In this document: one piece after another, positions 9,003-31,545 of the stretch
Layout of the letters: every line of letters starts with the position of its first letter
Numbering within the stretch: the first letter of the stretch is position 1
Assembly (NCBI GenBank): GCA_963169325.1
Contig: CAUJEY010000294.1
Coordinates: 1 to 60,314, forward strand
Direction of reading: 5' to 3'
DNA: 60,314 nucleotides
Origin: Bacteroidota bacterium
GTDB lineage: Bacteria; Bacteroidota; Bacteroidia; Chitinophagales; Saprospiraceae
Translations under genes and position numbers: made by a program
The notes under the pieces: generated by a model
What the model saw: the letters and a program-made list of their open reading frames with translations, nothing else
What the model was told of the DNA's origin: nothing
Database searches by the model: none

Positions 9003-10742
9003 TTACCTGCACTTAACCGCCGGACTCATCTGCGACACCCCACTTTCATTAAACGCCTCAATCGCAAAATAATAGTCCTGTCCAACATTTAAAGCGCGGA
9101 TATCCAGTGTGTTGCCGGCATCAGCCCATACCTGCCAGGTTTGGTATAGTTTGTCCGGCGCAATACCCCAGCGAATATTGTAGCCCACCGTACCCGGTAC
9201 GGGTTTCCAGGTCACGGAACAGTTGCGCGGGTCGGGATCGCGGCGCGCCTGCAATCCTACCGGTACGGCCGGCAAGGCGCCGTTGGCGCTGCCGAATACG
9301 CGGATATCGCTGATAGCCAGGTTGCGGGCGCCGACGTAGCGGTGTTCAAAACGGATAAAACGGGTTTTCACCGCGCTGGGTAATTCCAGGTAGGCATTGG
9401 GACGGTCGGTGCGGTTGTTCCAAAGATCGGCCAGGGTATCCCAGTGAATGGCATCGGTGGAGTGCAGCATCCGGAACTGTGTGCACACGCTGGAATCGCT
9501 GGCGAAAACCCCTGATTGATAATCAGTATAGTTCACTTGCACGGCCCGCACCTCACAGCGGCGCTGCAAATCCACCTGGAGCCACTCCCCCGGATTTTTA
9601 GTTTGCGCCACCCAGTAGCTACGCGGATTTTCGTCTGTCACGCGGATAGCATCAAAGGTGTCGCGCACGGAGGAGGCTGTTGCGGGTTTGCGGTACGACA
9701 GCAGCATCCAGCCGGTAAACAGGTCGTTGGCATCGCTCCAGGTATCCGGGGGCATATACTGTGGAAAATCGCCGAAACGGGTATTGCTGAACATTTGCCC
9801 GTCAGCATCGAATCCGGCGGGGAACATGGCCATACGGCGTTCGAAGTTCCAGTTGACGGCGATCCAGGGCGTGCCGGTGTTCCAGTAGTTGCCGTGGTTA
9901 TCCTGAAACGTGTTGCCGTGACCGGCGCCCACTACAAAGCCCCCGGGTTTGTAGGAAACGGGGTTGTATGCTGCATAGGTGAAGGGACCCAGCGGATCGT
10001 CGCCCACGTAGGTGCCGTTGGCGTACACATTGTACTCGGTGCCGGGCGCGCCGTATTGCAGGTAATATTTGCCGTTGTGTTCAGTCATCCAGGCGCCTTC
10101 CATAAAGGGTTTAATGGTATCCGTGTGGTTGAGCCCGAAGCGTTCCCAGCCGTGTTGTTCGGGGTGCAGGTAAAACAGTTTTTTCGCATCTCCCTTGTAT
10201 GCCAGCCGTTTGGCCGGGTCCAGTTCAATGCCGTATAGCGGATACACATTCGAGGAGCCGAAGTACATATACCAGCGCCCGGTGCGGTTGTCGTGGAAGA
10301 GGGCGGGGTCCCAGGGGCCCAGGGCATCGCCGGGCATACGCGGCAGCCAGCGGTTATAGAAATGCAGTTCGCCCGTCTCGGGTGCGGTGCTGTATAGTAT
10401 GGGCCGCTGTTCGAAGGTGGACTGGAACAACAGCAACGTATCCCCCATCGACCAGGCGGCAGGTGCGCAGTTGTCTTCGAAAGGCCAGCGGCTGGGTTTT
10501 ATATAGTGCCATTGCAACAGGTCTTTCGAATGCCAGTAGCCGCCCGAGATTGTGGCAAACAGATAGTATTCGCCTTTGTGATTGATAATGACCGGGTCGG
10601 CGCCGGAGCGGTAGGAGATGTTTTGATTGAGTTGTTCGAAGTTGTATTGATAGTTGAGGTCAACGGGGTTGCAGTAGGTGCGTTGGGCCGCAGCGACAAA
10701 AGGTAATGTAATGAAGGCGATAAAAACGAAGGGTTTGAACAT
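9003..10742 (-). CDS. Secreted GH43-type glycoside hydrolase with discoidin-like and FnIII modules
   Basis: A 579-residue protein with a signal peptide (MFKPFVFIAF to AAA, about 1-19). The five-bladed propeller catalytic domain spans about 40-350 and shows the expected acidic triad: Asp49 (SGADPVI), Asp145 (GPWDPALF) and Glu215 (FMEGAWM). A coagulation-factor 5/8 C (discoidin) carbohydrate-binding module follows (about 365-480, with WLQVDLQRRCEVRAVQVN), then a fibronectin III domain (about 490-575). The family hydrolyses arabinan, xylan or related side chains; substrate is not determinable here. There is no YPNP sorting domain, so it may be periplasmic. It is divergent from the Rpn-like gene to its right and convergent with the amidase. 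Confidence 0.88.
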   Translation of the reverse strand: MFKPFVFIAFITLPFVAAAQRTYCNPVDLNYQYNFEQLNQNISYRSGADPVIINHKGEYYLFATISGGYWHSKDLLQWHYIKPSRWPFEDNCAPAAWSMGDTLLLFQSTFEQRPILYSTAPETGELHFYNRWLPRMPGDALGPWDPALFHDNRTGRWYMYFGSSNVYPLYGIELDPAKRLAYKGDAKKLFYLHPEQHGWERFGLNHTDTIKPFMEGAWMTEHNGKYYLQYGAPGTEYNVYANGTYVGDDPLGPFTYAAYNPVSYKPGGFVVGAGHGNTFQDNHGNYWNTGTPWIAVNWNFERRMAMFPAGFDADGQMFSNTRFGDFPQYMPPDTWSDANDLFTGWMLLSYRKPATASSVRDTFDAIRVTDENPRSYWVAQTKNPGEWLQVDLQRRCEVRAVQVNYTDYQSGVFASDSSVCTQFRMLHSTDAIHWDTLADLWNNRTDRPNAYLELPSAVKTRFIRFEHRYVGARNLAISDIRVFGSANGALPAVPVGLQARRDPDPRNCSVTWKPVPGTVGYNIRWGIAPDKLYQTWQVWADAGNTLDIRALNVGQDYYFAIEAFNESGVSQMSPAVKCR

Positions 10743-10815
10743 ACTGATATCAGACAGTTATGGTAAGAAAAAGGGAAGCGTGAATAATAAACAAAAAATG
10801 TTTTTAATAAAATAT

Positions 10816-10847
10816 TTTGTTTTAAAAATACAAGAGCCATATCTTCG
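10816..10847 (+). promoter_or_regulatory. Candidate promoter of the first Rpn-like nuclease gene
   Basis: TTTG at 10816-10819, a 20-bp spacer, and TATCTTCG at 10840-10847 (7/8 to TAnnTTTG). It would give a leader of only about 15 nt before the ATG at 10869. The upstream AT-rich segment is similar to that of the second Rpn-like gene at 16.9 kb. Confidence 0.45.
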
Positions 10848-10868
10848 CCTTCTGAAAATAACCCACCC

Positions 10869-11900
10869 ATGCCTACTGAAAAACATTCCCGCCCCGGCAA
10901 AAAAGAAAAAGCGCACGATGCTGTATTCAAGGCATTTTTCAGCGATGCAAAAATTGCTAAAAATTATTTGTTGAACTACAGTCCGGCGGAGATTCACCGC
11001 TACCTTGATTTCAATTTTTTTCGGAAATGTGACACTGCATTTGTGAGCGGGCGTTTCGGAATTTCCTTTAGCGATGTGCTTTATGAAACCCGATTGATGA
11101 ATGGAGCGCTTGCCCGCTTGCTTTTTTTGTTTGAGCATAAAAGCTATTTACCTACGGTACCCATTTATTTGCAGTTATTGGACTATCTTTTGCAGATTTG
11201 GGAAGACGATATCAAAAATAAACGACCACTTTCTATCATTATCCCGGTTGTCGTTTATCACGGGGAACAAGGATGGGAGCAAAAGCCCTTTGCAGATTAT
11301 TTTGCTGTTTTGCCTGAAGATTGGCGCGCGTTTATTCCGAATTTTCATTACCTGCTGACTGATCTGAGCCAGATTCCACAACAGGTGATTCAGGCCAAAG
11401 AGGAAAGCGAATACCTGCGGAATTTGTTTTTAGCTTTAAAATTTGCCAGAAATAAACAATTTTTAAAGGGAAACTGGAGAGAAATCCTTACTTTTGAAGG
11501 GGCGTTTTACAGAAGTGATCGTGAGGCTCTGCTCCTTCAAACCCTTACTTTTTACATTATTAAGATTTCTAAAATGGAGGCAACTGAAATAAAAGAACTT
11601 AAGAAACAACTTCCCGAGCCTACCCGGAAGGTTATTGAAATCGCGCGTGAAATTTTTGGCGATGAGATACCCAAATTTGTAAAGGACGAATGGGAGAAAA
11701 AGGCACTCCGAAAAGGCCACAAAAAAGGTCGTCAGGAAGGCCGTCAGGAAGGCCGTCAGGAAACAACCCAAGATTTCACTATTAAAATCATCCAAAAGTT
11801 CCCGGACTGGAGCGATGCCGAGGTAGCCGGATTCGTGGGTGTCACGCCGGAATATGTGCAACAAGTGCGGCTTATTATAGCCGAACAAAAATCACAGTGA
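10869..11900 (+). CDS. Rpn-family recombination-promoting nuclease / PD-(D/E)XK 'transposase'
   Basis: A 343-residue protein that begins with KKEKAHDAVFKAFFSD, typical of RpnA/YhgA-like proteins. The PD-(D/E)XK core is visible as Asp69 (SFSDVLYETRL) and FEHKS with Glu89-x-Lys91. Family members cleave DNA and promote RecA-independent recombination, and short internal products can inhibit them. Near the C terminus a charged repeat GRQEGRQEGRQE (three copies, 9 bp scale) links to a helix-turn-helix-like tail (DWSDAEVAGFVGVTPEYVQQ). The gene is AT-rich relative to its neighbours and probably mobile. No terminal inverted repeats or target duplication are seen. A related gene sits at 15892-16827. 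Confidence 0.85.
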   Translation: MPTEKHSRPGKKEKAHDAVFKAFFSDAKIAKNYLLNYSPAEIHRYLDFNFFRKCDTAFVSGRFGISFSDVLYETRLMNGALARLLFLFEHKSYLPTVPIYLQLLDYLLQIWEDDIKNKRPLSIIIPVVVYHGEQGWEQKPFADYFAVLPEDWRAFIPNFHYLLTDLSQIPQQVIQAKEESEYLRNLFLALKFARNKQFLKGNWREILTFEGAFYRSDREALLLQTLTFYIIKISKMEATEIKELKKQLPEPTRKVIEIAREIFGDEIPKFVKDEWEKKALRKGHKKGRQEGRQEGRQETTQDFTIKIIQKFPDWSDAEVAGFVGVTPEYVQQVRLIIAEQKSQ

Positions 11901-11956
11901 TGTCCCCTCTCTTGTGTTTCGGATACTGCGTAAATCAGAAATACAAGTATACCCGA

Positions 11957-12640
11957 CTAAGGTATTTTTTGCACCAAAATTGACTGAACCGCTTTACCGG
12001 TATTGTCCTCCAACATAACCGTATACATGCCCGGCGGCAAACTGGCCGGCATATAAACCTGACCGGGCGCCGCGGCAAGCCGGAGTGCCTCCCGGCCGTC
12101 GGCCTGAATAAAACGCAGATGTGCCACCCCGTCAGCACCCTCCAGGCGGAAAGTAGATGAAAAAGGATTGGGGTATAACCGGATATTTGATTGGGGCATT
12201 GGATGAATCGCCGTGCTTGTGCAGTTATTGATCTCGTACAGCGCTGAAGTAGAATCCGCCGGGTTATTTTGGTTAATGACGCTTATACGAACCAGCGCAC
12301 AGCCCGGATCTTCCGAATAATTGAAGTAGACGATCGACATTTCTCCGCTATCGCCCGGCATCAGGGAAAAATTAAAGGTGTTTCGACTGGGTAAATGGCT
12401 GAGATAAGGATCCAGCACCGCTGTCATGGCGGTAGGTGGCTGGATGGCCAGCACCTCCCTGATCCAGGTAAGCGCGAGTGGCTGATTGGTCAGATTGGTG
12501 ATAACGCCCCTGGCCACCGTATCACTGTTCGGGCTAACCTGGGCGTAAGAGATTGCCGGCGATATAGAAAAACTTGCTTGCGCATCCGTTTGTCCGGAAA
12601 TGCCGATGCATAACAACGCGGAAAAAAAGAGTGATTTCAT
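11957..12640 (-). CDS. Secreted T9SS-sorted protein of unknown function
   Basis: A 227-residue protein with a signal peptide (MKSLFFSALLCIGISG), one beta-sandwich-like region (about 21-140; VARGVITNLTNQPLALTWIR resembles an Ig/CARDB-type domain), and a T9SS C-terminal domain from about 152 (LYPNPFSS ... LPPGMYTVML). There are no catalytic motifs. It is downstream of the GH97 gene on the same strand after 80 bp and may belong to that transcript. Confidence 0.8.
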   Translation of the reverse strand: MKSLFFSALLCIGISGQTDAQASFSISPAISYAQVSPNSDTVARGVITNLTNQPLALTWIREVLAIQPPTAMTAVLDPYLSHLPSRNTFNFSLMPGDSGEMSIVYFNYSEDPGCALVRISVINQNNPADSTSALYEINNCTSTAIHPMPQSNIRLYPNPFSSTFRLEGADGVAHLRFIQADGREALRLAAAPGQVYMPASLPPGMYTVMLEDNTGKAVQSILVQKIP

Positions 12641-12720
12641 CTTGAGTTTTTATAGTTATAAATCAATGGTTATATTACCGGGATAATATCACTATTCCGG
12701 AATCATCCGGAGCGAAGAGG

Positions 12721-14688
12721 TTATTTCAGTTGCCGCAGTACCGCCACAAAACCGCCACCCGGCGCTAAGTCAATTTTCAGTTGGTCGCTGTTTTTTACCC
12801 GTTTCACGTCGCGGCGGAAGTCCTGCGCATTCCGGTTAGCGTTGATACCGTCTTCGTAAAACTCCATTTCGAAGTCGCCGGCCGGCAGGAAATCGAGTTT
12901 TAAAAACAGCCGGCGCGCATCCCAGTCGGTCATGGCGCCAAGATACCACAGATTATCGCTTCCCAATCGCGCCACCGCCACGTAATCGCCCACACTTCCG
13001 TCGAGCGCCACGGTTTTTTCCCAGGTAGCCGGCACATGGGCCAGGAAGCGCAGGCATTCGGGTTCTTTTCGGTAGTTACTGGGGCTGTCGGCCAGCATTT
13101 GGAGCGGACTTTCAAACACGATGTATTTGGCCAGTTCGTGGCAGCGGGTGCCGAGCGAGGCCGGGCGATTGAAGGCAGGCGACCAGTCGTCGCGCTGGTA
13201 GTTGAGCATGGCGCCGGGGGTGTAATCCATCGGTCCGGCTACCATACGAATAAAGGGCAGGGTGACATTGTGCTCGGGGTCAATACGTTTGTCTTTGTCC
13301 CATTTCGATTGTTCCAGACCGTACACGCCTTCGAAACTGAGCACGTTTGGCCAGGTTCGGTGCAGCCCTGCCGGTTTGTGCGCCCCGTGGAAATCGAGCG
13401 TGAGGCGATTAGCCGCGGCTTTTTCAGCCATTTTCCAATAGTAATTTACGGCGGGCTGGTCGTCGCGTTGCATGAAGTCAATTTTCAGGCCTTTGACGTC
13501 CCATTTTTTCAGATTGGGCAGCAGGGCGTCGAATTGTTTGTCGATGGAGGTCCAGGTAACCCACAGGATAAGGCCCACGTTTTTTGACCGGGCATAAGTG
13601 GCCAGTTCGTCCATGTTCAGTCCGGGCGGCACAGCGAGCAGGTCGGCGGGGTTGGACCAGCCTTCGTCGAGGATGATATAGTCCAGCCCGTTTTCGGCAG
13701 CGAAATCGACGAAGTGTTTGTAGGTGGCCGTGTTGATACCGGCGTGAAAATCGACGCCGGTAATATTCAGGTTGTTCCACCAATCCCAGGCGACTTTGCC
13801 GGGCCGGATCCAACCGGTTTCCGTCAGGCGGCTCGGTTCTGCCAGCAGCCAGGGCATTTGGTTGGTGAGCAGGTCGGCGTCGCGTTCGGCCACCAGAAAC
13901 AAGCGCCAGGGGTAGCTGCGTTGTCCGGAAGTGCGCGCCAGGAAGGGCTCGCGGTCGGTCACTTTGATGTCGCGATCGGAGGTTTCGAGCGTGTATTTGG
14001 GATATTGCGGGAACACACCCCGGAGTTTGGCGCCGGCTGCGCCGCGCAACCAGAGGCCGGGGTAATCCTGGAGATCCGTTTCCGTGAGGAGTACTTTTAC
14101 GCCGTTCTCAGCGGCCAGCAGGGCGGGGAGACTGGCGAGTTTGGTCTCGTTCAGGTCGGCCGGGGCGTAGGGGATGCAGACTCGTTCGTTGTGCGAGTAA
14201 AAACTTTCTTCTTCCGGGAAAAAGACGGTTTTGCCGTTGGCCATTTGAACATGGTAGGTTTCATTGACCACCGTTACCGGCACGCGGTTTTTAAACCGGG
14301 TGAAAAAGCAGTAGGCCACACCTTCGTCGTAAGCGCGAAAACGCACGCCCCAATCGCCGTCACAGTGCAGGGTCAGTTCGTTATAACGTTCCGGTATTTC
14401 CGCACTTTTCTGGTGTACAGGCGGGCGTTGTACCTCGTTCACGGTTCGTTTCTCCGTGCTCCTGACCTTTACTTGTTGTCCCAAAATACCGGCGCCTTCT
14501 ATTTCCAAGGCAATGGCGGCCGTGTTGAGCAGGGGTTGGCCGCGCAGGTTGAGCCGCCACGACAGATTCGGCGTGGTTTCGACGGCGATTTGTAAGGCGC
14601 CGTTGGGGGAGGAAAGGGTGTAAGCGGTTTGGGTGAAACCGGCAAGGGGCAGCAGGCAAAAAGCAAGCGGCAAAAGGCGAGTGCGCAT
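12721..14688 (-). CDS. GH97 family glycoside hydrolase (alpha-galactosidase/alpha-glucosidase)
   Basis: A 655-residue exported enzyme; the ATG at 14688 gives the signal peptide RLLPLAFCLLPLAGFTQ. The N-terminal beta-sandwich (about 25-280) is followed by a catalytic (beta/alpha)8 barrel with YIILDEGWSNPADLL, WDVKGLKIDFMQRDDQ and LTLDFHGAHKPAGLHRTWPN. In GH97 the Asp of KIDFM acts as nucleophile in retaining (BtGal97b-like) enzymes and is absent in inverting SusB-like ones. Its presence (about residue 402), with glutamates about 50 residues later in LSFEGVYGLE, points to a retaining alpha-galactosidase-type enzyme. It follows the M29 aminopeptidase by 61 bp on the same strand. Confidence 0.93.
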   Translation of the reverse strand: MRTRLLPLAFCLLPLAGFTQTAYTLSSPNGALQIAVETTPNLSWRLNLRGQPLLNTAAIALEIEGAGILGQQVKVRSTEKRTVNEVQRPPVHQKSAEIPERYNELTLHCDGDWGVRFRAYDEGVAYCFFTRFKNRVPVTVVNETYHVQMANGKTVFFPEEESFYSHNERVCIPYAPADLNETKLASLPALLAAENGVKVLLTETDLQDYPGLWLRGAAGAKLRGVFPQYPKYTLETSDRDIKVTDREPFLARTSGQRSYPWRLFLVAERDADLLTNQMPWLLAEPSRLTETGWIRPGKVAWDWWNNLNITGVDFHAGINTATYKHFVDFAAENGLDYIILDEGWSNPADLLAVPPGLNMDELATYARSKNVGLILWVTWTSIDKQFDALLPNLKKWDVKGLKIDFMQRDDQPAVNYYWKMAEKAAANRLTLDFHGAHKPAGLHRTWPNVLSFEGVYGLEQSKWDKDKRIDPEHNVTLPFIRMVAGPMDYTPGAMLNYQRDDWSPAFNRPASLGTRCHELAKYIVFESPLQMLADSPSNYRKEPECLRFLAHVPATWEKTVALDGSVGDYVAVARLGSDNLWYLGAMTDWDARRLFLKLDFLPAGDFEMEFYEDGINANRNAQDFRRDVKRVKNSDQLKIDLAPGGGFVAVLRQLK

Positions 14689-19813: not shown

Positions 19814-21550
19814 ATGGACACACTCCTCCTCACCTTCGCCAATCAGTCTGCCGATCTGCTGCCCACCCTGCAGGAAGAAGACGATACCCTCAACCGTGTG
19901 CTCTCGCCCCGGGCCAAAGCGCGGCATTTCCTGTTGCACCGCGATTCGTTCGTCACCCTGGAAAAACTACCCGCCTACATCACCTTGTACCGCGACGAGC
20001 TGGTACTGTTTGTGTTCAGCGGCCATGCCGGGCGCGACCGGTTGGTGCTGGGCGACGGCGCCGCGCAAGCCGGCGGCCTGGCGCAGATGCTGGGACAATG
20101 CCCGAAGTTGAAATTAGTATTTCTGAACGGCTGTTCCACCCAAGGACAAGTGGCGCAACTGCTGGCCGCCGGCGTCCCCGTGGTAATTGCCACCAGCGCG
20201 CCGGTGAGCGACCGGAAAGCAACCTTTTTTTCCATCCGTTTTTTTGAAGCGCTGCAACAACAATTCACCCTGCGCGAAGCTTTTAACATGGCTAAAGCCG
20301 CGCTGGAAACCGCATTCGCCGGTATACAAGTGACCGAACATCGCGATATCGGTTTTGAAGTCGAAATGGAGGAAGAGCCCGCATGGGGACTCTTTTTTAC
20401 AGAAAAAAACGAACATATCCTCGACTGGAAATTGCCCGTTCAGGCGATTGCAGAAACTGAAACCTTCGCAAATTTTACGCCCAACCAATACCTGATCGAC
20501 ACGCTCTTCAAAGCCCTGGCCGAAGACAGCGAAGACATCCGCAAACTGAACCAGCAAATCCAGCGCGGCGTACAGATTTCCATCCCCAAAAAACGTATGG
20601 CCGTGCTCAATGCCCTGCCGGCCCCCCTGGCCGAACCCCTGCGCAAACTCATGGTGCCGGTGGAAAAAGAAAACGAAGGTTTCGATAAGGTCAGCGAAGC
20701 CCGGCTCCGGCAAATATCCCAGGCCTACATCACCTCCATGGAACTGCTCACCTTCACAATGCTGGCAGAACTGTGGGAAGCGCACGACAACCTGGGGCGG
20801 CTGGATATTCAGGAGAACCAGACTGAAATGCTCCGGGCGTTTTTCCGCCTGTCGCGCACCGACCGGGAAATTTTTGATTTTTTTCCCTTGGTCGGAACGC
20901 TGAAAGCCATCTTCAATCAGAACAAAATCAACTATTTCGTCCGGGAACTGGAAGACATCTGGCGGCTCACGCAGGAGGATCAGACCTTTCAGGAATCCCT
21001 GCATTTCCTCAACGGCCTGCGTTTGCAAGTACGCCACGATCAATTGGATAAATCGGCGCTCGGCTACCTGTGCAAACGCGGCGAAGAAAGCTTAGCCTGC
21101 CTGTATGATCACCTGGGTTTTATGGCCCGCTATAAACTCGCGACCATCCAGGGCATCGACGTGGAAAAATACCGCCACCGCCGCAACCCGAGTTACAACC
21201 ACGCCACCGTGATGTTGCACGATCTGCTCGGCGGCTTCGACGTGTCGGCTGTGCTGCTCAACAAATCGCTCGACAACCATTCCGTGCTGCTGATCAACGA
21301 GGAGACCTGGGAGTATCTCAGTTTGTCGCCTTTTCTGATCGATGAAAATGCTTTTCAGGGGCACGCCGAAATTTGCAAACTGTACCTGTTTTCCCATTAC
21401 GTCAGAGCCGCTGATATCTATTGTTTTAAATACGTCAATAAACCCGACGATCCCTACCTGGAAATTTCGGCGGAAAATCACGCCATCGTCAAAGAGCAAT
21501 TTGAAGCCTTTGCCGAAATCATCCTCCACCAACCGATGCATACGCCGTGA
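19814..21550 (+). CDS. CHAT-domain (caspase-like) protease
   Basis: A 578-residue protein with no signal peptide. Its first about 200 residues form a compact CHAT fold: LVLFVFSGHAGRD supplies His71 and LVFLNGCSTQG supplies Cys107, the expected catalytic dyad of the caspase/separase clan. VPVVIATSAPVSD and the FTLREAFNMAKAA helix complete the domain. Residues about 230-578 are mostly helical, without recognised repeats, and may sense or bind the partner. The stop overlaps the start of the STAND ATPase by 4 bp, so translation is coupled. CHAT proteases are known effectors in conflict systems, where NTPase or CRISPR partners trigger cleavage. Here the signal and substrate are unknown. Confidence 0.88.
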   Translation: MDTLLLTFANQSADLLPTLQEEDDTLNRVLSPRAKARHFLLHRDSFVTLEKLPAYITLYRDELVLFVFSGHAGRDRLVLGDGAAQAGGLAQMLGQCPKLKLVFLNGCSTQGQVAQLLAAGVPVVIATSAPVSDRKATFFSIRFFEALQQQFTLREAFNMAKAALETAFAGIQVTEHRDIGFEVEMEEEPAWGLFFTEKNEHILDWKLPVQAIAETETFANFTPNQYLIDTLFKALAEDSEDIRKLNQQIQRGVQISIPKKRMAVLNALPAPLAEPLRKLMVPVEKENEGFDKVSEARLRQISQAYITSMELLTFTMLAELWEAHDNLGRLDIQENQTEMLRAFFRLSRTDREIFDFFPLVGTLKAIFNQNKINYFVRELEDIWRLTQEDQTFQESLHFLNGLRLQVRHDQLDKSALGYLCKRGEESLACLYDHLGFMARYKLATIQGIDVEKYRHRRNPSYNHATVMLHDLLGGFDVSAVLLNKSLDNHSVLLINEETWEYLSLSPFLIDENAFQGHAEICKLYLFSHYVRAADIYCFKYVNKPDDPYLEISAENHAIVKEQFEAFAEIILHQPMHTP

Positions 21551-23493
21551 ACAGCCCCTTTAAGTTTCTCGACGCCTACACCATCGACGACCGGCAGGCT
21601 TTTTTCGGACGCGAGGAAGAAGTGGCCGCCCTGTACGACATGGTGACCCGGAACCGGCTGATACTCGTGTACGGCCAGTCGGGCACCGGAAAAACCAGCC
21701 TGATCCAGTGCGGCCTGGCGGCCCGCTTCGACGCGACGGACTGGTACCCCCTGTTCATACGCCGGCAAACGGATATCAACCAATCCCTGGCACAGCGCCT
21801 GCGCCAGGCTTCGGGCCTCGACGATTACGGCACGGCTGTAGATGCCCTTGAAGAAATTTACGTGGCCGGTCTGCGCCCCGTGTATTTCATTTTTGATCAG
21901 TTGGAGGAACTATTTATCCTCGGTAAGCCGGACGAACGCGCCACATTTATCCAAACCATCCGGGATATCTTGAGCAGCAGTTTGCCCTGTCGCATCCTGT
22001 TCGTGATGCGCGAGGAGTACCTGGCTTACCTGTATGGTTTTGAAAAAACGATACCCACCTTCTTCGACCGGCGCCTGCGCGTGGAGCCTATGAGCACGAC
22101 CAAGGTGAAATCGGTGCTAGAGGGTTCTTTCCGGCAGTTCAATATCCGCGTGCAGGCGCCTGAAGCCGAAAACCTGCTGCGCATCATCGATAATATCAGC
22201 GGTGGGCGCGCGGGCATTCAGTTGCCGTATTTGCAGGTTTATCTGGACTCCCTGTACCGCGAAGATTTTACCCGCACGTATCCCAACCGCGAAAACCCGG
22301 CAGGGGAGTGGTTGCCGCTCGAATTTACCCGTCCGGAAATAGATGTGATGGGTAAAATAGAAAACGTCCTGGAGAAATTTTTACAGGAACAACAACTCGA
22401 AATCCAGCGCCGTCTGGAGCGGCAATTCCCGAAAACAGCCGGCGACGCCGTACAAAAAGTGCTGGATGCTTTCGTCTCGGAAGAGGGCACCAAACGCCCC
22501 GTGGGCTTCGAGCGCCGCGGCGACGATCTGATCGTGGAAAAACGCTGGGCCGACCTCTTCCGCCCCCTGTCGCCCCAGGCGTTGGGCGCCTGCTGCCAAC
22601 TGCTCGAACAGGCCCGCCTGCTCCGCGTGGCCGACGAACACCTGGAACTGGCCCACGATGCGCTGGCTATTCTGATCGACAAGCAGCGCTCCGGCCAGCA
22701 GCGCCGCCTCAACGAAACGCTGCGCCGCCTGCAACACAACTACCGCGAATTTGCCGACACCGGCGAATACCTGACCCGCCGGCAACTCAACGCCGCGGAA
22801 GAACTCCTGCCCCTGCTGGAAGACCGGCTTGACGACGACATCAAAAAATACGTGGCCGACAGCCTCCGCCATGCCGAAAAAACCGAACACGCCGAACTGG
22901 AGGAAGAACGCCGGAAGCGCAAACAGGCGCGGCGGGTTGCCATCGTCGGGCTCACCCTGGCGGCTATTGCGCTGATCGGTTTTGTCTTGGCCTGGGTGCA
23001 GTTTCTGGCTGCCAATCGCGCGAAGATCGAAATTGCCCGCAATGCCATGCAGGCCCAGCGCAACATCGCCACCGCGCTGAAAATGGATGGTAAATACGCC
23101 GAAGCGCTCCAGCAATTGCAGGGTACGGAACAATTTGTTTCTGTGTTGAAAACGTCGGAACAAACGGAAATTCAACAACTTCGGGGCAAGTGGCAACAGG
23201 TGCAACGCTACATGACCGCCGGCGACAGCCTGACTGCCGGCGGCGACCTGCGCGCCGCGCTGGCCCAATACGGGGAAGCCCAAAAAACGGACCGGGACGA
23301 CCGGATCGACAACAGGATTGCGCAAACGACACGCGATATCGAGACCAAATTCCAGGAATACCGGCTGTTTGGCGACGCGTTGTACAACGCGAAAAAGTAC
23401 GACCTGGCGATGCAGAACTTTGAAAAAGCCTTGCGGCTCAAACCGGGAGATGCAGAGGTGGCGCGGAAACTGGAATTGTGCCGGCAACGGTGA
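21547..23493 (+). CDS. Membrane-anchored STAND ATPase with TPR-like tail
   Basis: A 648-residue protein starting at GTG 21547, overlapping the CHAT stop (GTGA). FFGREEEV (19-26), Walker A GQSGTGKT (43-50) and Walker B VYFIFDQLEELF (Asp117) identify an nSTAND-type P-loop ATPase. LELAHDALAILI near 365 is the conserved winged-helix end of this family. A charged region and one transmembrane helix (about 463-487, LTLAAIALIGFVLAW) follow. The C-terminal 150 residues contain coiled-coil and TPR-like helices (YNAKKYDLAMQNFEKALRLK). STAND ATPases oligomerise on signal binding and activate an effector; the coupled CHAT protease is the obvious candidate. Most relatives carry WD40 or longer TPR sensors; this one has a short tail outside the membrane helix. 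Confidence 0.88.
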   Translation: MNSPFKFLDAYTIDDRQAFFGREEEVAALYDMVTRNRLILVYGQSGTGKTSLIQCGLAARFDATDWYPLFIRRQTDINQSLAQRLRQASGLDDYGTAVDALEEIYVAGLRPVYFIFDQLEELFILGKPDERATFIQTIRDILSSSLPCRILFVMREEYLAYLYGFEKTIPTFFDRRLRVEPMSTTKVKSVLEGSFRQFNIRVQAPEAENLLRIIDNISGGRAGIQLPYLQVYLDSLYREDFTRTYPNRENPAGEWLPLEFTRPEIDVMGKIENVLEKFLQEQQLEIQRRLERQFPKTAGDAVQKVLDAFVSEEGTKRPVGFERRGDDLIVEKRWADLFRPLSPQALGACCQLLEQARLLRVADEHLELAHDALAILIDKQRSGQQRRLNETLRRLQHNYREFADTGEYLTRRQLNAAEELLPLLEDRLDDDIKKYVADSLRHAEKTEHAELEEERRKRKQARRVAIVGLTLAAIALIGFVLAWVQFLAANRAKIEIARNAMQAQRNIATALKMDGKYAEALQQLQGTEQFVSVLKTSEQTEIQQLRGKWQQVQRYMTAGDSLTAGGDLRAALAQYGEAQKTDRDDRIDNRIAQTTRDIETKFQEYRLFGDALYNAKKYDLAMQNFEKALRLKPGDAEVARKLELCRQR

Positions 23494-23785: not shown

Positions 23786-23946
23786 CCGACATTATTTGAC
23801 CTTTCCATTAATCCGGTAATCCCCTGGCCGGGGCCGCCTTTTCCCGCCGCTTTCCTGCCGCATTCAATATTCGCTTCACGACCCACATTGCCGGCTGGCT
23901 GCTGTTGCAGTTTATCCGAATTATTCATTTTAAAAAACCAACATGT

Positions 23947-26900
23947 ATGCGCAGACTTTTTACTCCTTTCGCAATCGCTTTGTTGATTAATCTGATTTTC
24001 GCACAGAAAATCTCGGCTCAAGGCCCTACACCATGCGAGCTGTTCACGTGGATACAATGCGGCGATCAGCTGATTGATTCTACAAAATACGGCGATTCCC
24101 TGTACAACAACTATAATAACGTAAATAACTATCCCTGTATCGACGATGATACGGCCAATCTGGTGAATGGTTACGACAAGCAGTATAAGATCACTATCGG
24201 GGGGCCGACGAATATCCGGTTTGTGCTGGATATCTTGAATAACACGGACCTGGATATGTTTTTGCTTGATTCCTGCGCTTTTGTCCAGAGATGTTATTAT
24301 ACCAATGAATATAATTTAGCCAACGGTATTTCCCGCGAAGTGCTCGATGTTTACCTCACGGTACCGGGCACTTACAGCCTGATTGTGGATAATAAAGATT
24401 GGTTTGGTATTGGAAAATATCAACTTACGGTAGACTGTACCTGCAATTGTATAGAGCCCGGGAACGACTCGCCTACCGGCGAAACCATTTTTTGCGATGA
24501 TTTTGAAAATTATCTGTCCGGAAAAGCCCTGACCCCACAATCCTCGCGGTGGGAATCGTGGGACAGCCTTTCCGTAGATGCCGTAGTGACGACGGCGGGG
24601 TTTTCCGGTAAGGGGGCCCATATAAAAACACAAGGCTCCAGCAAACCGCGTGTGGTATATACCCTGGAAAAAGACGAGCCGCTGCCGGGTTCCGGCCGCT
24701 TCCGGTTGTCGTGGAAAATGAATGTGGCGCCCGGCAAACAAGCCCGGTACAATTTGCTACACCGGGGCCCCGGCACGGGGTTTGTCAACTGGGGCTACCA
24801 TGTCCGGTTCAACGCAAACGGCACAGGTGAGGTGCGGCTCGGCAATCCGGCCAATGCGCCCATTGCCACGTTTCCCTATCCGCAGGGTATATGGATGAAT
24901 GTGGTGCAGATCAACGACATGACGAAAAATGTTGCAGAACTTTGGATCAACAACAATTTTGTGACCTCCTGGGTATTCAGTACCGGTTATACGCAGGCCG
25001 GGGTGAATTTTAACCTGAACCGGATGAACGCCATAGAATTTGTGGCGGAGGATAATGCCGATTTTCGGATAGATAATATCTGCGTTTGGAAAAAAACAAA
25101 CGATTGTAGCGGCGGCGGCGCACCGGTGTGCGTGGAAAACGGCGCCAATTACCCCAGTACCGCCGCCGCCCGTTGCGACCTGTACACGTCTGCGGAGTGG
25201 GGCGGCTGTAATTCAGTTTGCGATTATGGGGGGACGTTTATTTATCGCGGGGATGAATATACCGGTGATCTGGATGGCTCCGACTATGCGCCCGAATTGA
25301 TCAGGCTCGATCCCTGCGTTATCAGTGCCTACGGCGGCAATGTGCCCTCGCCGCTTTACGCCGATGTGTATGTTTTCTCCAAAAACGACAATGACATCCT
25401 TGATTTGAATTTTAACCCCACCAGTAACCTGGCGAAAGCCAAAGCGTTCGTTTTTGCCTGCAATACTATGGGGCCGGGCGGCGCTTGCAACAATGGCCAG
25501 CAATGTCTCCAGGAAATAGGCAACTCCGGCATTTACACCCCCTATACCTGCGACAGCTTTTACTACATTGTGATCACCGGCACCGTCAATACTACTTATT
25601 CCCTGTCGGTTAAGCCGGACGGCCCCTGCAATGCCAACTTTGAAGTTTTGAACCTGGATTGTTTGGAGCAGGGCACAGAAATCATAGTACAGAACGTGGT
25701 CTCAGACATCTCCGTGTTTGATACCTCGGCTGCCAACAGCCCTTACCGGCAATGTTACGGTGGCGCCCGTCCTTATTCCGGCGGTGAAAAAATTTATAAA
25801 ATAACCCTGGACCGGCCCAGTATTATTTCCGTGGCGCTTAAGGCCCTTGTTCCGATGGGCCTGTTTCTCAGTTCGTATGAATGTGGAAAAGAGTGCCTGA
25901 ATTATGCTGAAACGACGGTGACCGATAGTGTCGCAGTGCTGAGTGAATGGCTGCCGGAGGGGAACTATTTTCTTATTATCGATAAGGCTTTTCCAACAGG
26001 GGCCAAGAATTTTGATTTGTTTGCCGTTTGCGAACCGAAGCCCTTTTTTATAAAGTTTACGGAAGGGTGCAATATACTGTCGGTACCTAAACCTGCCCCA
26101 GTTATTCCACAGGCGCCTTCCGGGAAAAAACTGTTGATACAATCCGAGTCCTGCGGTTGTGCGTTGTACGATACGTTATTGCCGCATACGGTGCGGATGT
26201 TGAAGGGTTTGTACGATTTTTCTCCCAATGATATCATATCTTTTTATTTCCGCGACAGTGTCAACAATCTCTCGAGCAACGAGGTGAAATACAGCTTCTT
26301 CTATGATACGGCTGCAGCGACCGGGATGATTTTTCCCCTGAATAAAAATGCCCCGGACGACTCCACCAAATGCTATTATTACAACGGCGACAGCCTGTTT
26401 ATCTGGTTGGCCCAAACGGGCGCCGGCAGCCGGAATTTCCGGGAAATGCTGGTACAATATTCCGATACCGTACCCCCCGCTATCACGGCTACCAATGTCT
26501 TCGGGGCGGCTGCCAACAGCGAAATAAAGGGTATTACGTTGTCAAATCCGATCACATTCGGTGGCTCCAGTTATCGCGTACGTACACGTTATACCGCGGA
26601 GACTCGTACGGTCAATTTTCTCGCCAGTATTCCCTGGCACCTCGAAATTGTGGCCGACGATGACAGTTGGCTGGCCGTAACGCCGGACGCCGGCACCGGG
26701 GGGGGAGTGTATCCCATCCGAATACAGTTAGAGCCAAACACTTCACCGCTGCCCCGCTATGCCGTGCTGCGTTTCGTCGCCGAATACCGGCCTGATTTCT
26801 TCCGCTATGAGGTGCTCATTGAACAGGATGGCATCTGTATCCCCGCTACGGTGGAGATCGTACCCAGCGTCACCGAGTTTTGCGAAGGCGACTCGATTAC

Positions 26901-29900
26901 CCTGACCGCTGATGTCGGCGTCAATCCGCTGGATCCGACTCAAAGCCTGGCGTCCATCTATAATTATAAATGGAGTGATAACAGTACGTTGCCTGATATA
27001 AAATTCCTGCCCAGCGTAGGGTCGCAAACCTATACGGTAACTATTACAAATAAAGACGCCAACTGCCCGGAAACGGACATGGATGATATTTCGTTCACCC
27101 CTGGCCAGCGGCCTGCAACGCCGGCCCTGGTAAGTCCACCCGAAATCCGGATTTGCAATAATGATCCGGCGCCAAACCTGACAGTCAGCGTCCTTGCCGG
27201 ACAAGTGGTGAATTGGTACGATATGCCCGCCGGCGGCAATATATTGCTGCCGAATTCCCCGGTCTATACGCCTATGCCTCCTGTCTCGGGTTCCTATTAT
27301 GCCGAAGCACAAATTCCCGGCGGCTGTGCCAGTCTTACCCGTCGTAAAATCGACCTCACGGTAGATCCGGCGCCGAATATTATTATTTCAGATACGATAT
27401 GTGCGCCCGATTTTCTGACCTACTCTTTTTCGGTAAACACCAATGGTGATAATGTTGAATCCGAGCCGGGTACGGAAGAATTTGTAAACGGCGTATGGCT
27501 CATTCGTAATGTCCCTATCGGCAGTCAGGCTGTCGTGACCGCCTTTAATGATCTGTGTCAAAGCACCCTGACAGTAACCCCGCCCACCTGTGTCTGCAAC
27601 GTCAGTATCCCGGTCAGCGGCGGAGACCGAACCGTGTGCGATACGGAGACGCCTGTGCTGACCGCCACGGTGCCAGGGCCCAACGAAACCGTGGACTGGT
27701 ACAATGTTCCAACCGGCGGTATGGTACTGTCGCAAGGGCAAAATACCCCGAACTTCTCGCCTTCGGCAAGTGGTCTTTATTTTGCAGAAGGCCGAAATAC
27801 CCTGAACAATTGTGTAAGTACGGAACGAACGCCGGTACAACTTACCATTCACCCCACCCCGGTACTGACCCTGACGGATACGGTATGCGCGCCGAACCTG
27901 TCGGTATACGATTTGGCGGTACAAACTACCCCGGGCGCCGTATTGGCGGCGAGCACCGGTGTGGTTTCCGGGACAAACGGCCAATTTATAGTTACCGGTA
28001 TTCAGGCAGCTCAGGACGTAATACTGACTGTTTCCGATACGGTTACCGGCTGTTTCCGAAGTCAGACGGTGTTGGCGCCCGATTGCGCCTGCCTCACTAT
28101 TCCGTCGCCGGTTTCCGGAGGCGATGCCGCTATTTGCCCCGGCGCGCCCTTACCGGTGCTGTCTGTAACCGTTGCGCCTGGTTTGACGGCGGACTGGTTC
28201 AATGCCAATAACGTAAATGTGGCGCCCGACACGCTTTTCTTCAAGCCGTTCTCGCCGGGAACCTATTTCGTACAGGCCCGGAATCCGGATGACGGCTGCA
28301 CAAGTGCCGTCAAAACACCCGTTTCGCTGAGTATTTATGCCCTGCCGTCTATTTCGGTTTCCTTGCCACTATGCGCACCCAATCGGTTGACCTATAGCCG
28401 GGAAGTCATTGTGAACCCGGACGTGGTGATTGTTGCCGGCCCCGGTGTTGTTACCGGCGGCAACGGCAGTTTCACCGTCAGTGCAATTCCGGTGAATACG
28501 CCGCTGGCGATCACCATCACAGATACGCTTACTGGCTGTTCCCGCGATACGCTGTTGGAAGGAATACCTTGTCCTTGTGTTCAGGCGATAGATCCGCCGG
28601 TTGTTTTGGGCATCAATCCTGTCGAAATATGTGCAGGGGAAACTATTCCGATACTTCAGGTAAATGTCGGGCCCAATCAAACAGCCAACTGGTACGACGC
28701 CTCCGGTACATTGGTGGCGCCGCTGACCACCTTTTTCCAGCCATCCGGCCCGGGGATTTTCAACGTGGAAGCCCTGGATACGATCAGTAATTGTAAAAGC
28801 GCCGGTTTAACGGCCGCACAACTGATCATTCATCCGCTACCGGCATTTCAGGTCAGCGGCAAAACCTGCGACAGCACCCTGACCACTTACAGTCTTATAG
28901 TGACTACGGCCCCCGGTAACACGGTTGCCGCGAGCCAGGGCACGCCGTCCGGTTCAAATGGCTCGTTCTTGTTGAGCGGTTTATTGGCCGGGCAGGATGT
29001 TCAGGTGACCGTGACAAATCCACAAACAACCTGTAGTTTGAGTCAATTGGTCATATCTCCTGTTTGCAGCTGCGATACGACCATTGCGCCGCCGGTTTCG
29101 GGGGGCGACACCACGATATGCAGCGGGCAAACATTCCCGAATCTTACCGTCAAAGTAGGGCCCGATCAAACGGCCTATTGGTACAATCAGTTTGGGATAA
29201 AAGTTGGGGAGGGCTTGAGCCTGACCCCACCCGAAGCGGGTACCTATTGCGCCGAAACCCGCAATAATGTGGACAACTGTCCAAGCCTTTCCTGCACCGA
29301 GGTGACGCTGAGCATACAACCCCTTCCCACGTTGTTATTTACCGATACGATTTGTTCCGACGACCTGAAAACATATAGCCTTCAGGTGCTGACTGATGGT
29401 ACCGGTATTATCACGTCGCCGGTTTATACTTACATCCCGATCACGCAGGGCGAATATGTGATTCTGAATATCCCTGTCGGCACAACCGTTCAAATCACTG
29501 CGCAAGATGCAAATACCACCTGTGCCTTCACGCGTACCGTGGCCGTTAACAATTGTCCCTGCCCGCCGGTAGCCGCCCCGATCAACCCGGTGAGCCGGGA
29601 AATTTGCCAGGGCGATGCTATACCGTTTCTGAACGTTTCGGTAGTCAATCCGGCCACACAGACGGTGGACTGGTTCACGGCAGGCGGCGCCCTTATTCTG
29701 AACGGCGGTGTGGGCACCTTGAGTTATAAACCGCCGGTAGCCCAGACGGCAACCTTTTACACCCAAACCCGGGACATCGTCACGCAATGTATCAGCGCCA
29801 ACCGTACCCCGGTCATGCTTACCGTGCGCGATTCGGTGATAGTGAATGCCGGTGTGGATCGAATTGTTTGCGCCGGAGAGCAGGTGTCGCTTACGGTGAG

Positions 29901-31545
29901 TCTGGGTGGGACGGATGGTGGAACATGGAGCGCCGATGTACCCGACGGCGTCTTTTTCCCGAACAATAATGCGCTGAGCGCACAGTATTACGTGCCGCCC
30001 GCCGGTGTGAGTTCGGTGACGCTCACCCTCCAGGGCAACGATCCCCCGGGGCCCTGTCCGGCCGTGACAGATCAAATGCTGATTACAGTAAAACCCCTCC
30101 CCGCTGCACATCTCGACTCTGCCTATTGCGCTGCAAATTTGAAAACCTGGTCGGCTGAATTTACCACCGATGCCATTAACGTGACGCCGGACAAGGGAAC
30201 CTTCACGCCGCTCGGCAACGACCGTTACCGCGTCAGCGGCATAATAAAAGGGCAGGACCTTTCGGTTAGCCTGGAAAATGCGGCCGACTGTTCGGACACC
30301 ATAGCATTCCCGGCCCCCGACTGCGCCTGTCCGGATGTGGCGCCGCCTCAACTACCGGTGTCGATCGAAATTTGTGCAAATGAGGCTATCCCGTTGCTCA
30401 ATACGCAGGTCGGGGCAGATGAAACGGTCGACTGGTACGACGCTCCGACAGGTGGCCTGCTGCTTGCCGGGGATACAACGGCCTACCAACCTACCGGTCC
30501 CGGTGAAATATTTGCCCAAACCCGCAACCGGATCAACGATTGTTTATCGGCCAGGGTGAAAGTAACAGTGATCATCAGGTCGTTACCGGCCGCTAATGCC
30601 GGCGTTGCTATGGCTGTTTGCGCGGGTAACTCTGCTACACTGACGGCCACTGCCGGCGCGGGCTATGCCTACCTGTGGAGCACGGGCGAAACGACACAAA
30701 ATATCGTGGTGACACCGCTTGAAACGACCGTTTATTACCTCACGGTGACGGCAAATGCCTGCGCCGCCACCGATTCGGTACAGGTAAAGGTAAACCCTGC
30801 GTTGCAGACCGCGATCTCGCTGGTCAGCCCCGTGCGTTGCTTTGGTGAATCCAACGGCGCCATTCAAACCGTGGTAACCGGTGGCACACCGGGCTTCAGC
30901 TATCTGTGGTCTAATAATTCCGTGTTGCCGGCCATTAACGGTTTGCCGGCCGGCGCCTATAGCGTGACTGTTATCGACGATGCTAATTGCCAGGGCACTG
31001 CAGCATTCGTTCTATCGCAACCCGATCCGCTCGTACTGACCAATTCGGTCATCATAAATGCCAGCGGCGGTCAGTCCGACGGCTCCATTCAGGTAACGGT
31101 GCAGGGCGGAAACGGGAAATACGGTTTTCAATGGTATCAAAACGATACCTTGTTGACCGGCGAAAAACAAGCGCTACTGGATTCCGTGCCTGCCGGCTTT
31201 TACGCAGTGATTGTGACGGATACCTTGGGCTGTACGGTATCTTCCGCCGTCCTGGCTATCGGCACGATCGGTATCGATGATCAGTCTGGAAAACACCGGG
31301 TGCTGCTATACCCCAATCCGACCAGCGGCCGGATATACCTGCAACTGGAACTCGAAACCTATTCAGCGGTGGAAACCTCGGTGTTGGATATATTGGGGCG
31401 CAGCGTACATTTTCAACAACACGGGATGCTGCAACAAGGAACCCTGGTATTGGATATATCCGACCAGCCGGCCGGTATGTACCTGGTGCAGATACGACTC
31501 AAGGATGCTATTATGGTGTATAAGGTAAATGTTTCTAAAAAATAG
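23947..31545 (+). CDS. Giant T9SS-secreted protein with Ig-like repeat array (2532 aa)
   Basis: ATG at 23947 is chosen because it opens a signal peptide (RRLFTPFAIALLINLIFAQK). Order: a prepeptidase-C-like domain (about 45-150), a concanavalin/LamG-like domain (about 180-400), further beta domains, a BACON-like domain (SIPWHLEIVADDDSWLAVTP, about 895-960), then seven copies of a roughly 160-residue unit from about 1060 to 2220. Each unit starts with a Cys-x-Cys/PVSGGD segment, continues to (V/A)(D/N/Y)WY or WF, and ends with (I/V)CAP-type cysteines. Two SprB-type repeats (SVTVIDDANCQG) and the T9SS domain (LYPNPTSG, QPAGMYLVQI) close the protein. It is probably a cell-surface adhesin or gliding-type filament. 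First gene of a four-gene operon. Confidence 0.9.
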   Translation: MRRLFTPFAIALLINLIFAQKISAQGPTPCELFTWIQCGDQLIDSTKYGDSLYNNYNNVNNYPCIDDDTANLVNGYDKQYKITIGGPTNIRFVLDILNNTDLDMFLLDSCAFVQRCYYTNEYNLANGISREVLDVYLTVPGTYSLIVDNKDWFGIGKYQLTVDCTCNCIEPGNDSPTGETIFCDDFENYLSGKALTPQSSRWESWDSLSVDAVVTTAGFSGKGAHIKTQGSSKPRVVYTLEKDEPLPGSGRFRLSWKMNVAPGKQARYNLLHRGPGTGFVNWGYHVRFNANGTGEVRLGNPANAPIATFPYPQGIWMNVVQINDMTKNVAELWINNNFVTSWVFSTGYTQAGVNFNLNRMNAIEFVAEDNADFRIDNICVWKKTNDCSGGGAPVCVENGANYPSTAAARCDLYTSAEWGGCNSVCDYGGTFIYRGDEYTGDLDGSDYAPELIRLDPCVISAYGGNVPSPLYADVYVFSKNDNDILDLNFNPTSNLAKAKAFVFACNTMGPGGACNNGQQCLQEIGNSGIYTPYTCDSFYYIVITGTVNTTYSLSVKPDGPCNANFEVLNLDCLEQGTEIIVQNVVSDISVFDTSAANSPYRQCYGGARPYSGGEKIYKITLDRPSIISVALKALVPMGLFLSSYECGKECLNYAETTVTDSVAVLSEWLPEGNYFLIIDKAFPTGAKNFDLFAVCEPKPFFIKFTEGCNILSVPKPAPVIPQAPSGKKLLIQSESCGCALYDTLLPHTVRMLKGLYDFSPNDIISFYFRDSVNNLSSNEVKYSFFYDTAAATGMIFPLNKNAPDDSTKCYYYNGDSLFIWLAQTGAGSRNFREMLVQYSDTVPPAITATNVFGAAANSEIKGITLSNPITFGGSSYRVRTRYTAETRTVNFLASIPWHLEIVADDDSWLAVTPDAGTGGGVYPIRIQLEPNTSPLPRYAVLRFVAEYRPDFFRYEVLIEQDGICIPATVEIVPSVTEFCEGDSITLTADVGVNPLDPTQSLASIYNYKWSDNSTLPDIKFLPSVGSQTYTVTITNKDANCPETDMDDISFTPGQRPATPALVSPPEIRICNNDPAPNLTVSVLAGQVVNWYDMPAGGNILLPNSPVYTPMPPVSGSYYAEAQIPGGCASLTRRKIDLTVDPAPNIIISDTICAPDFLTYSFSVNTNGDNVESEPGTEEFVNGVWLIRNVPIGSQAVVTAFNDLCQSTLTVTPPTCVCNVSIPVSGGDRTVCDTETPVLTATVPGPNETVDWYNVPTGGMVLSQGQNTPNFSPSASGLYFAEGRNTLNNCVSTERTPVQLTIHPTPVLTLTDTVCAPNLSVYDLAVQTTPGAVLAASTGVVSGTNGQFIVTGIQAAQDVILTVSDTVTGCFRSQTVLAPDCACLTIPSPVSGGDAAICPGAPLPVLSVTVAPGLTADWFNANNVNVAPDTLFFKPFSPGTYFVQARNPDDGCTSAVKTPVSLSIYALPSISVSLPLCAPNRLTYSREVIVNPDVVIVAGPGVVTGGNGSFTVSAIPVNTPLAITITDTLTGCSRDTLLEGIPCPCVQAIDPPVVLGINPVEICAGETIPILQVNVGPNQTANWYDASGTLVAPLTTFFQPSGPGIFNVEALDTISNCKSAGLTAAQLIIHPLPAFQVSGKTCDSTLTTYSLIVTTAPGNTVAASQGTPSGSNGSFLLSGLLAGQDVQVTVTNPQTTCSLSQLVISPVCSCDTTIAPPVSGGDTTICSGQTFPNLTVKVGPDQTAYWYNQFGIKVGEGLSLTPPEAGTYCAETRNNVDNCPSLSCTEVTLSIQPLPTLLFTDTICSDDLKTYSLQVLTDGTGIITSPVYTYIPITQGEYVILNIPVGTTVQITAQDANTTCAFTRTVAVNNCPCPPVAAPINPVSREICQGDAIPFLNVSVVNPATQTVDWFTAGGALILNGGVGTLSYKPPVAQTATFYTQTRDIVTQCISANRTPVMLTVRDSVIVNAGVDRIVCAGEQVSLTVSLGGTDGGTWSADVPDGVFFPNNNALSAQYYVPPAGVSSVTLTLQGNDPPGPCPAVTDQMLITVKPLPAAHLDSAYCAANLKTWSAEFTTDAINVTPDKGTFTPLGNDRYRVSGIIKGQDLSVSLENAADCSDTIAFPAPDCACPDVAPPQLPVSIEICANEAIPLLNTQVGADETVDWYDAPTGGLLLAGDTTAYQPTGPGEIFAQTRNRINDCLSARVKVTVIIRSLPAANAGVAMAVCAGNSATLTATAGAGYAYLWSTGETTQNIVVTPLETTVYYLTVTANACAATDSVQVKVNPALQTAISLVSPVRCFGESNGAIQTVVTGGTPGFSYLWSNNSVLPAINGLPAGAYSVTVIDDANCQGTAAFVLSQPDPLVLTNSVIINASGGQSDGSIQVTVQGGNGKYGFQWYQNDTLLTGEKQALLDSVPAGFYAVIVTDTLGCTVSSAVLAIGTIGIDDQSGKHRVLLYPNPTSGRIYLQLELETYSAVETSVLDILGRSVHFQQHGMLQQGTLVLDISDQPAGMYLVQIRLKDAIMVYKVNVSKK

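Follow-up and report, generated by a model that had tools for sequence, protein, structure and literature searches.

Introduction

The apoptosome and NLRs work through an oligomer of an ATPase, which activates a caspase by proximity. Conflict systems are already known to contain STAND, EAD, TIR and caspase-type modules and to exchange them, according to the available passages of three papers (PMC7159879, PMC8195603, PMC10907252). The systems of Kaur et al. from 2020 (PMC7159879) and 2021 (PMC8195603) have, in those passages, STAND NTPases, EADs, TIR or caspase-type effectors, effector exchange and many copies per genome in common with the family described here. The nSTAND2 two-gene systems, as outlined in the latter paper, encode an effector protein with an inactive STAND, while the system of PMC10907252, diversified by a diversity-generating retroelement and composed of nSTAND1, EAD8 and trypsin parts, shares with our family nSTAND1, a C-terminal FGE-type sensor and an effector whose recruitment is attributed to an adaptor. 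In Avs1, a STAND-linked protease cleaves and activates a neighbouring pro-nuclease, according to the available part of PMC12799240. Here we analyze a pair of adjoining genes from a Saprospiraceae bacterium of the phylum Bacteroidota (assembly GCA_963169325.1, contig CAUJEY010000294.1), lying in a stretch of 60,314 nucleotides (nt) that was analyzed as a whole and is called the window. Gene 1 encodes a CHAT protease joined to a C-terminal region termed CHAT_C, gene 2 encodes an nSTAND1 ATPase, and we read the pair, with a probability of about 60%, as a split, NLR-like conflict switch made of two proteins.

A conserved two-gene core

A first-pass annotation, made from the letters of the DNA, had described gene 1 as a CHAT protease with a His71/Cys107 pair, whose stop codon overlaps the start of an nSTAND ATPase gene with Walker A and B motifs, a transmembrane (TM) helix and a short TPR-like tail. 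All these features were recovered (Table 1). Gene 1 matched the Pfam CHAT family with 28.3 bits against a cut-off of 24 (PF12770), and a profile built from 17 CHAT proteins of the family retrieved from the PDB the CHAT protein 8tl0 with an E value of 6e-17, the Gly-His and Asn-x-Cys motifs of the latter aligning with GH71 and NGC107 of gene 1. The match itself names only a CHAT protein, which we take to be SAVED-CHAT. The putative catalytic His and Cys were kept in 81/81 aligned CHAT domains, namely the 80 survey domains covering the motifs and that of the window, with a partial one (L079) excluded.

Gene 2 matched nSTAND1 with 127.1 bits against a cut-off of 27.1 (PF20703, residues 4-375), and K49, D117, E120, E121, R155 and E156 were conserved in 90/90 STANDs, this set comprising those that cover most of the nSTAND1 model, window included and partial ones excluded. 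Its predicted TM helix showed a mean Kyte-Doolittle value of 2.72, with seven lysines and arginines (K+R) in the 15 residues before it and two in the 15 after, and its tail carries a single TPR repeat (TPR_2, 27.3 bits against a cut-off of 27 for the whole protein and 34.1 bits for the tail alone). No EAD was matched in either protein by Pfam. Gene 1 had no match in PADLOC and NCBIfam at E values up to 0.1, and at the same threshold gene 2 returned weak matches only, those of NCBIfam all being below their cut-offs. An assignment of gene 2 to the Avs anti-phage STANDs was rejected (NCBIfam Avs4, 19.3 bits against a cut-off of 1500; PADLOC Avs4, E 0.0022).

The CHAT_C survey covered 98 fetched regions (1.07 Mb in total) and returned 102 CHAT_C open reading frames (ORFs), among them two from the broken locus L080 and the identical copies L145 and L146, located on two contigs of one genome. 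Matches to CHAT or STAND had partly guided the choice of the first 22 regions, and the other 76 were chosen by CHAT_C alone; one region chosen for its CHAT match (L079) held neither CHAT_C nor STAND by the models used. The first-pass annotation had staked its proposal on adjacency being conserved in other genomes, and an nSTAND gene was found downstream on the same strand in 97 of the 102 CHAT_C ORFs, and in 74 of the 79 from the regions chosen by CHAT_C alone. The STAND match starts at most 300 nt past the stop in 95 pairs, 43 of which show the exact 4-nt overlap. In L172 it starts 998 nt on, within an ORF beginning 20 nt past the stop, and the first ORF of L080 was counted through the shared STAND 841 nt on. 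The five ORFs with no STAND comprise three at or near a contig end (L142, L184, L195), an ORF of 389 amino acids (L205) and a fragment of 142 (L206).

Distances among CHAT_C sequences correlated with those among STAND cores over 90 loci (Mantel r 0.835, at most 0.134 in 2000 permutations), which shows, at the level of sequence distances, that the two are co-inherited as a unit. The pair is not a product of chance, because it recurs and evolves under purifying selection when compared with its nearest relative, found in a genome (G040) of the window's genus. The CHAT proteins are 79% and the STAND proteins 82% identical, with nonsynonymous divergence (dN) of 0.128 and 0.109, synonymous divergence (dS) of 0.95 and 1.0, and dN/dS ratios of 0.13 and 0.11, respectively.

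CHAT_C itself appears to be a new domain that defines a family. When 23 members were searched against Pfam at E values up to 1, no family was found in more than two of them (best E 0.0027), which rules out a known Pfam domain, and CHAT_C matched no death-fold family at this threshold. PDB sequences searched in the same way gave four matches to designed or other helical chains (best E 0.039), taken as chance. The earlier suggestion that about 350 C-terminal residues of gene 1 might hold a new domain thus fits the last 360 or so, which have no Pfam or convincing PDB relative. An inactive nSTAND1 was considered and rejected as the identity of CHAT_C, with an hhalign probability of 0.1% and one aligned column in a comparison that did not include nSTAND2 itself.

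Exchange at the effector end

CHAT shares its ORF with CHAT_C in 77 of the 102 cases and forms a separate ORF in two (L077, L078). In other members EAD11 is fused to CHAT_C in seven loci (L066, L166, L167, L178, L185, L190, L199) and encoded by a small upstream ORF in five (L065, L067, L160, L187, L200), an adenylate/guanylate cyclase is fused to CHAT_C in L157, a TIR-CHAT_C frame is interrupted by a stop in L080, giving two ORFs, and a trypsin-type ORF truncated by the contig end lies upstream of the CHAT_C of L201. No effector was recognised in three ORFs (L197, L198, L203), while L173 and L194 are truncated by contig ends and L205 and L206 are unpartnered. On a CHAT_C tree of 91 rows, built by a quick method with L080 and L201 excluded as too short, the effector labels require 8 changes, shuffled labels needing 17.4 on average, and the starred branches force at least three changes of the EAD11 label; the cyclase form falls in a clade marked 99* together with two CHAT forms.

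The window's genome gave 31 EAD11 matches, 29 of them above the cut-off. Pfam annotation covered ten of these 31 loci, plus four met as CHAT_C neighbours or in the cluster on contig C34, and the ten contain CHAT (1), SIR2 (2), TIR (1), a protein kinase (1), TPRs (2), CARDB (1) or nothing else (2). By the EAD principle, as presented in the available passages of PMC8195603, the EAD11-CHAT_C loci could recruit other effectors.

A cluster of related conflict genes is present at L063 (contig C34 of the window's genome, G000, 9899-13950), where a SIR2-EAD11 gene and an nSTAND1-FGE gene lie between two CHAT-STAND pairs, the EAD11 scoring 25.4 bits against a cut-off of 26. On contigs C219, C93, C133, C229 and C230 of G000, distant nSTAND-like matches directly adjoin an EAD11 match, with SIR2-EAD11 as the neighbour in C219 and C93.

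Sensor end and membrane topology

At a Kyte-Doolittle threshold of >1.6, a TM-like segment was detected in 57 of the 90 STAND ORFs, in nearly all of them starting at residue 437-521. K+R counts were higher on the N-terminal side in 53 of the 57, equal in two and lower in two. With a cytosolic ATPase, this positive-inside charge pattern leads to a tail predicted outside, and would suit the sensing across the envelope proposed by the first-pass annotation. The same annotation had considered the membrane anchor unusual and the sensor small; the anchor is indeed unusual relative to soluble STANDs but common within the family, and a small sensor is no family rule, tails ranging from 72 to 1,126 residues.

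Tails were scanned from the window and 46 of 49 listed STANDs (47 in all; L146, L198 and L200 excluded). Among the matches listed (25 of 50 families) there were up to 13 to TPR (one model), five to FGE-sulfatase, four to WG, three to LRR and two to WD40. Two pairs of paralogous STANDs, one on contigs C192 and C138 and the other with both genes on C34, are 72-100% identical in each 50-residue block through residue 450, with 68% in the block up to 500 for C192/C138, and past the conserved part their tails drop to 0-31% identity. The swap point lies just after the TM segment in C192/C138 and at or slightly before it in the C34 pair; judged from these alignments, the tails of the paralogues have recently been swapped around the TM segment. 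A second STAND module is fused behind the first in L073, L074, L137, L139, L140, L143, L144, L147, L165 and L173.

Separate sensor cassettes

The STAND of the window pair is fused, but relatives of the pair include a split form, counted at 13 loci or more (18 ORFs), in which the HD motif, TM segment and tail constitute a separate ORF with E-x-x-HD near its start, and the ATPase ORF, of about 350-460 amino acids, terminates before the HD motif. Judged by eye, L191 and L177/L239 also fit this form. Sensor ORFs occur in tandem, three in L168, three in L169 and two in L134, and a single one lies upstream of CHAT in L148 and L189. DNA repeats able to move such cassettes were only weak or short in L168 and L169, the longest being 92 nt at 71%.

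A cassette profile was searched in 15 genomes, many of the weaker matches being fused STANDs. Four genomes have a single strong family ATPase each (E at most 1e-128) and carry five (G594), three (G507), three (G526) and two (G525) cassettes. The 12.5 kb fetched around the G507 ATPase (L182) held no cassette, its three being on other contigs, and in G594 four cassettes are located about 95-100 kb from the ATPase, adjoining a C14 caspase gene. Cassette sites with no neighbouring ATPase gene were L227, with four clustered cassettes far from any family ATPase, L228, L229, L230, L232, L233 and L235; L231 (near a contig end), L236 (STAND at a contig edge) and L234 (partial STAND) were not counted as orphan sites. 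These orphan cassettes may serve a distant ATPase, most of the assemblies concerned being fragmented.

We tentatively propose that docking of CHAT_C would make nSTAND a general hub for pluggable effectors and for sensors with HD and TM. Within the split subfamily, several trans sensor subunits, each supplying the ATPase with an HD motif of its own (by analogy MHD-like), might share a single ATPase-effector hub, an arrangement that would be the bacterial equivalent of sensor-helper networks among NLRs and would read the envelope.

Distribution and neighbouring genes

The genome of the window (8.07 Mb, 349 contigs) contains at least 11 CHAT_C loci including that of the window (best 13 of 20 candidates scored), and genome G524 contains nine. 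A search with the CHAT protein in 100 genomes gave matches in 18, the window's among them, many covering the CHAT part alone. With the CHAT_C profile, 38 of 150 genomes from the window's family and 8 of 149 sampled at the level of the order gave matches, the window's genome being counted in each.

No third gene was common to the 98 regions. The largest cluster other than CHAT, CHAT_C and STAND occurred in 14 of them and is largely C14 caspase, a candidate substrate or partner outside the core. When ten window genes were run against PADLOC, the UvrD/PcrA-type helicase adjoining the pair matched helicase models generically. About 31 kb from the pair, a gene at 54491-55564 on the reverse strand matched the HEC-01A candidate defence model (PADLOC E 3.8e-139, best of 83 models matched), and a gene of 221 amino acids at 53829-54494, on the same strand, lies directly beside it, which may represent a second defence locus. 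Sorting tails of the type IX secretion system kind, typical of Bacteroidota, were noted in the window, through a weak match and, at the end of the ORF at 23905-31545, by eye.

Table 1. Features of the CHAT_C-nSTAND1 gene pair, in window coordinates
Feature	Position	Strand	Evidence
Gene 1, CHAT protease fused to CHAT_C, 578 amino acids, ATG start	19814..21550	+	ORF, Pfam
CHAT (caspase-like) region, residues 1-215, Pfam match 70-164	19814..20458	+	PF12770, 8tl0
Predicted catalytic His71 codon	20024..20026	+	Conserved; aligned with GH of 8tl0
Predicted catalytic Cys107 codon	20132..20134	+	Conserved; aligned with NxC of 8tl0
CHAT_C, residues 216-578, undescribed domain common to effector variants	20459..21547	+	102 ORFs
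Stop/start overlap GTGA (4 nt), coupling genes 1 and 2	21547..21550	+	Sequence
Gene 2, nSTAND1 ATPase with TM helix and tail, 648 amino acids, GTG start	21547..23493	+	ORF, Pfam
Walker A GQSGTGKT, residues 43-50	21673..21696	+	K49 in 90/90
Walker B Asp117 codon	21895..21897	+	D in 90/90
ELAHDALA, residues 367-374, HD motif; split subfamily breaks before HD	22645..22668	+	
Predicted TM helix, residues 464-482, N-terminal side basic	22936..22992	+	Hydropathy
Tail, 166 amino acids, predicted extracytoplasmic; TPR-like repeat at 23362-23451	22993..23490	+	

Discussion

The family combines a variable effector carried by a separate protein, a constant NTPase and a variable sensor, that is, the three parts of an NLR-like receptor. 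According to the mechanism that we propose, the nSTAND1 protein would be anchored in the inner membrane, keeping its ATPase on the cytosolic side and exposing its variable tail on the outer one. When the tail senses a ligand or a disturbance, the closed ATPase would become ATP-bound and oligomeric. CHAT_C, which we infer to dock on the nSTAND core, would thereby gather its fused effector. For the window pair the effector is a putative CHAT cysteine protease that might be activated by induced proximity and cleave a substrate, resulting in arrest or death of the cell or in the switching on of a further effector. In other members the same core would gather EAD11, a cyclase or TIR, and the EAD11 form may recruit further effectors via like-with-like contact. 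An immune role would be part of this scheme, although we hold its use against phages specifically with lower confidence than the scheme as a whole.

Several observations weigh against this reading. The effector labels are clustered on the CHAT_C tree, and exchange is therefore not frequent. CHAT_C and the STAND core have the same nearest neighbour in only 54 of 90 loci, and the contact between them is suggested by co-inheritance, which alone is no proof of it. An AlphaFold2 model of the CHAT protein, computed from an alignment of two sequences only, reached a predicted local distance difference test score (pLDDT) of 35, too low for a usable structure, and the active site was assessed at the level of sequence. 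At the threshold used, 33 of the 90 STAND ORFs have no TM-like segment; 17 of these are at most 430 amino acids long and mostly of the split form with the TM segment on a separate gene, while the remaining ones, for example double-STAND forms, look soluble. The distribution is patchy, since any CHAT-protein match was found in 6 of 41 genomes of the same genus, and the CHAT_C profile in at least 3 of 395 genomes of a phylum sample, the window's genome included (at most four candidates were scored per genome, and the window's genome itself showed four of its 11 loci there). Enrichment in defence islands, which the first-pass annotation had suggested looking for, found no support in PADLOC, by which the pair lies in no clear island among the ten window genes. 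Finally, most loci have no third gene, so no general substrate is visible.

With regard to the substrate, the CHAT protease might constitute the upper step of a caspase cascade and cleave a Peptidase_C14 executioner encoded nearby or elsewhere. C14-like genes occur in 15 of the 98 regions (1.07 Mb), where about 1.4 would be expected from the 89 found in 12 genomes (about 67 Mb); these genomes were hand-picked, G204 having been taken by mistake in place of G286, the region and genome counts used different models, and the expectation becomes about 2.8 at the density of the window's genome (21 in 8.07 Mb). C14 genes lie beside CHAT in G053, G557, G045 (two) and G076, the sole C14 gene of G586 adjoins its CHAT gene, and on contig C4 of G000 a C14 gene precedes CHAT on the same strand at a distance of 12 nt. 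However, C14 was not detected by the model used for the regions in 83 of the 98, the window contig has none and several of the 15 cases fall on related branches. The model itself derives from four proteins, three of them from surveyed regions (L148, L168, L169), and missed at least one Pfam-level case (L061). CHAT and C14 together represent a concrete candidate protease cascade, whose existence we nevertheless consider doubtful.

The pair might also be a developmental or envelope-stress switch of the cell itself instead of an anti-phage or conflict system. The tails are likely extracytoplasmic, no phage trigger is known and viral contigs, in one scan with 12 pattern matches, gave no confirmed relative; nevertheless, a housekeeping role accords less well than conflict with the patchy presence, the multi-copy paralogy, the exchange of effectors (TIR, EAD11, cyclase, protease) and the rapid swaps of sensors, and such a switch is unlikely. 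That CHAT_C is the sensor binding the trigger, with the STAND merely amplifying and the tail acting as an anchor or regulator, is quite improbable: between the window and G040 CHAT_C evolved faster than CHAT (dN 0.148 against 0.094) and matches the tail (0.140), and seven STANDs have just 72-84 residues after the TM segment, but in the two recent paralogue pairs CHAT_C is 80-100% identical in each 50-residue block with the tails replaced outright, and it remains constant across effectors and diverges with the ATPase, as a docking module should.

We therefore retain the interpretation as a split conflict switch, an NLR-like receptor whose effector, switch and sensor parts would be exchangeable or encoded apart. 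The exchange of effector and sensor ends around a constant middle resembles animal and plant immune receptors. If the reading of the cassettes as trans sensors is true, bacterial sensor-helper networks would become testable gene by gene, and the path that leads from a sensor spanning the membrane to a protease of caspase-like type could be followed in a simple cell.

Compared with known systems, the CHAT_C domain and the two-gene core appear to be new, whereas the module types and their exchange are known. In the literature covered (mostly without subscription journals and supplements) no description of CHAT_C, the two-gene core or trans HD-sensor cassettes was found. The main-text passages of Kaur et al. 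from 2020 and 2021 present no CHAT_C or two-gene CHAT_C-nSTAND1 core; 'CHAT' and 'nSTAND' have 0 occurrences in the main text of PMC7159879, and in that of PMC8195603 they have 0 as whole words, although the paper has 'chat' three times, 'nstand' three times and 'nstand1' once at the start of words. The effector protein of the nSTAND2 two-gene systems contains an inactive STAND, whereas CHAT_C is not nSTAND1-like by hhalign, nSTAND2 itself being outside that comparison. In the system of PMC10907252 the EAD8 adaptor is fused to the STAND, and CHAT_C is unmentioned in the passages available.

TPR-CHAT (Craspase) and SAVED-CHAT share with the window pair a CHAT protease with a His/Cys pair, but the pair has no CRISPR or SAVED part and would be switched by its STAND partner. 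The protease of Avs1 presumably belongs to another family and is fused to the STAND protein. The likeness of our pair to the Avs (AVAST) systems, including Avs1 with its trypsin-like protease, lies in a STAND ATPase linked to a protease (PMC12799240, in the part available). With respect to the apoptosome and NLRs, the protease is here joined via a separate protein, the ATPase has a membrane anchor and CHAT_C has no death-fold Pfam match, while the split subfamily is similar to NAIP-NLRC4 and helper NLRs, in that several sensors face one ATPase.

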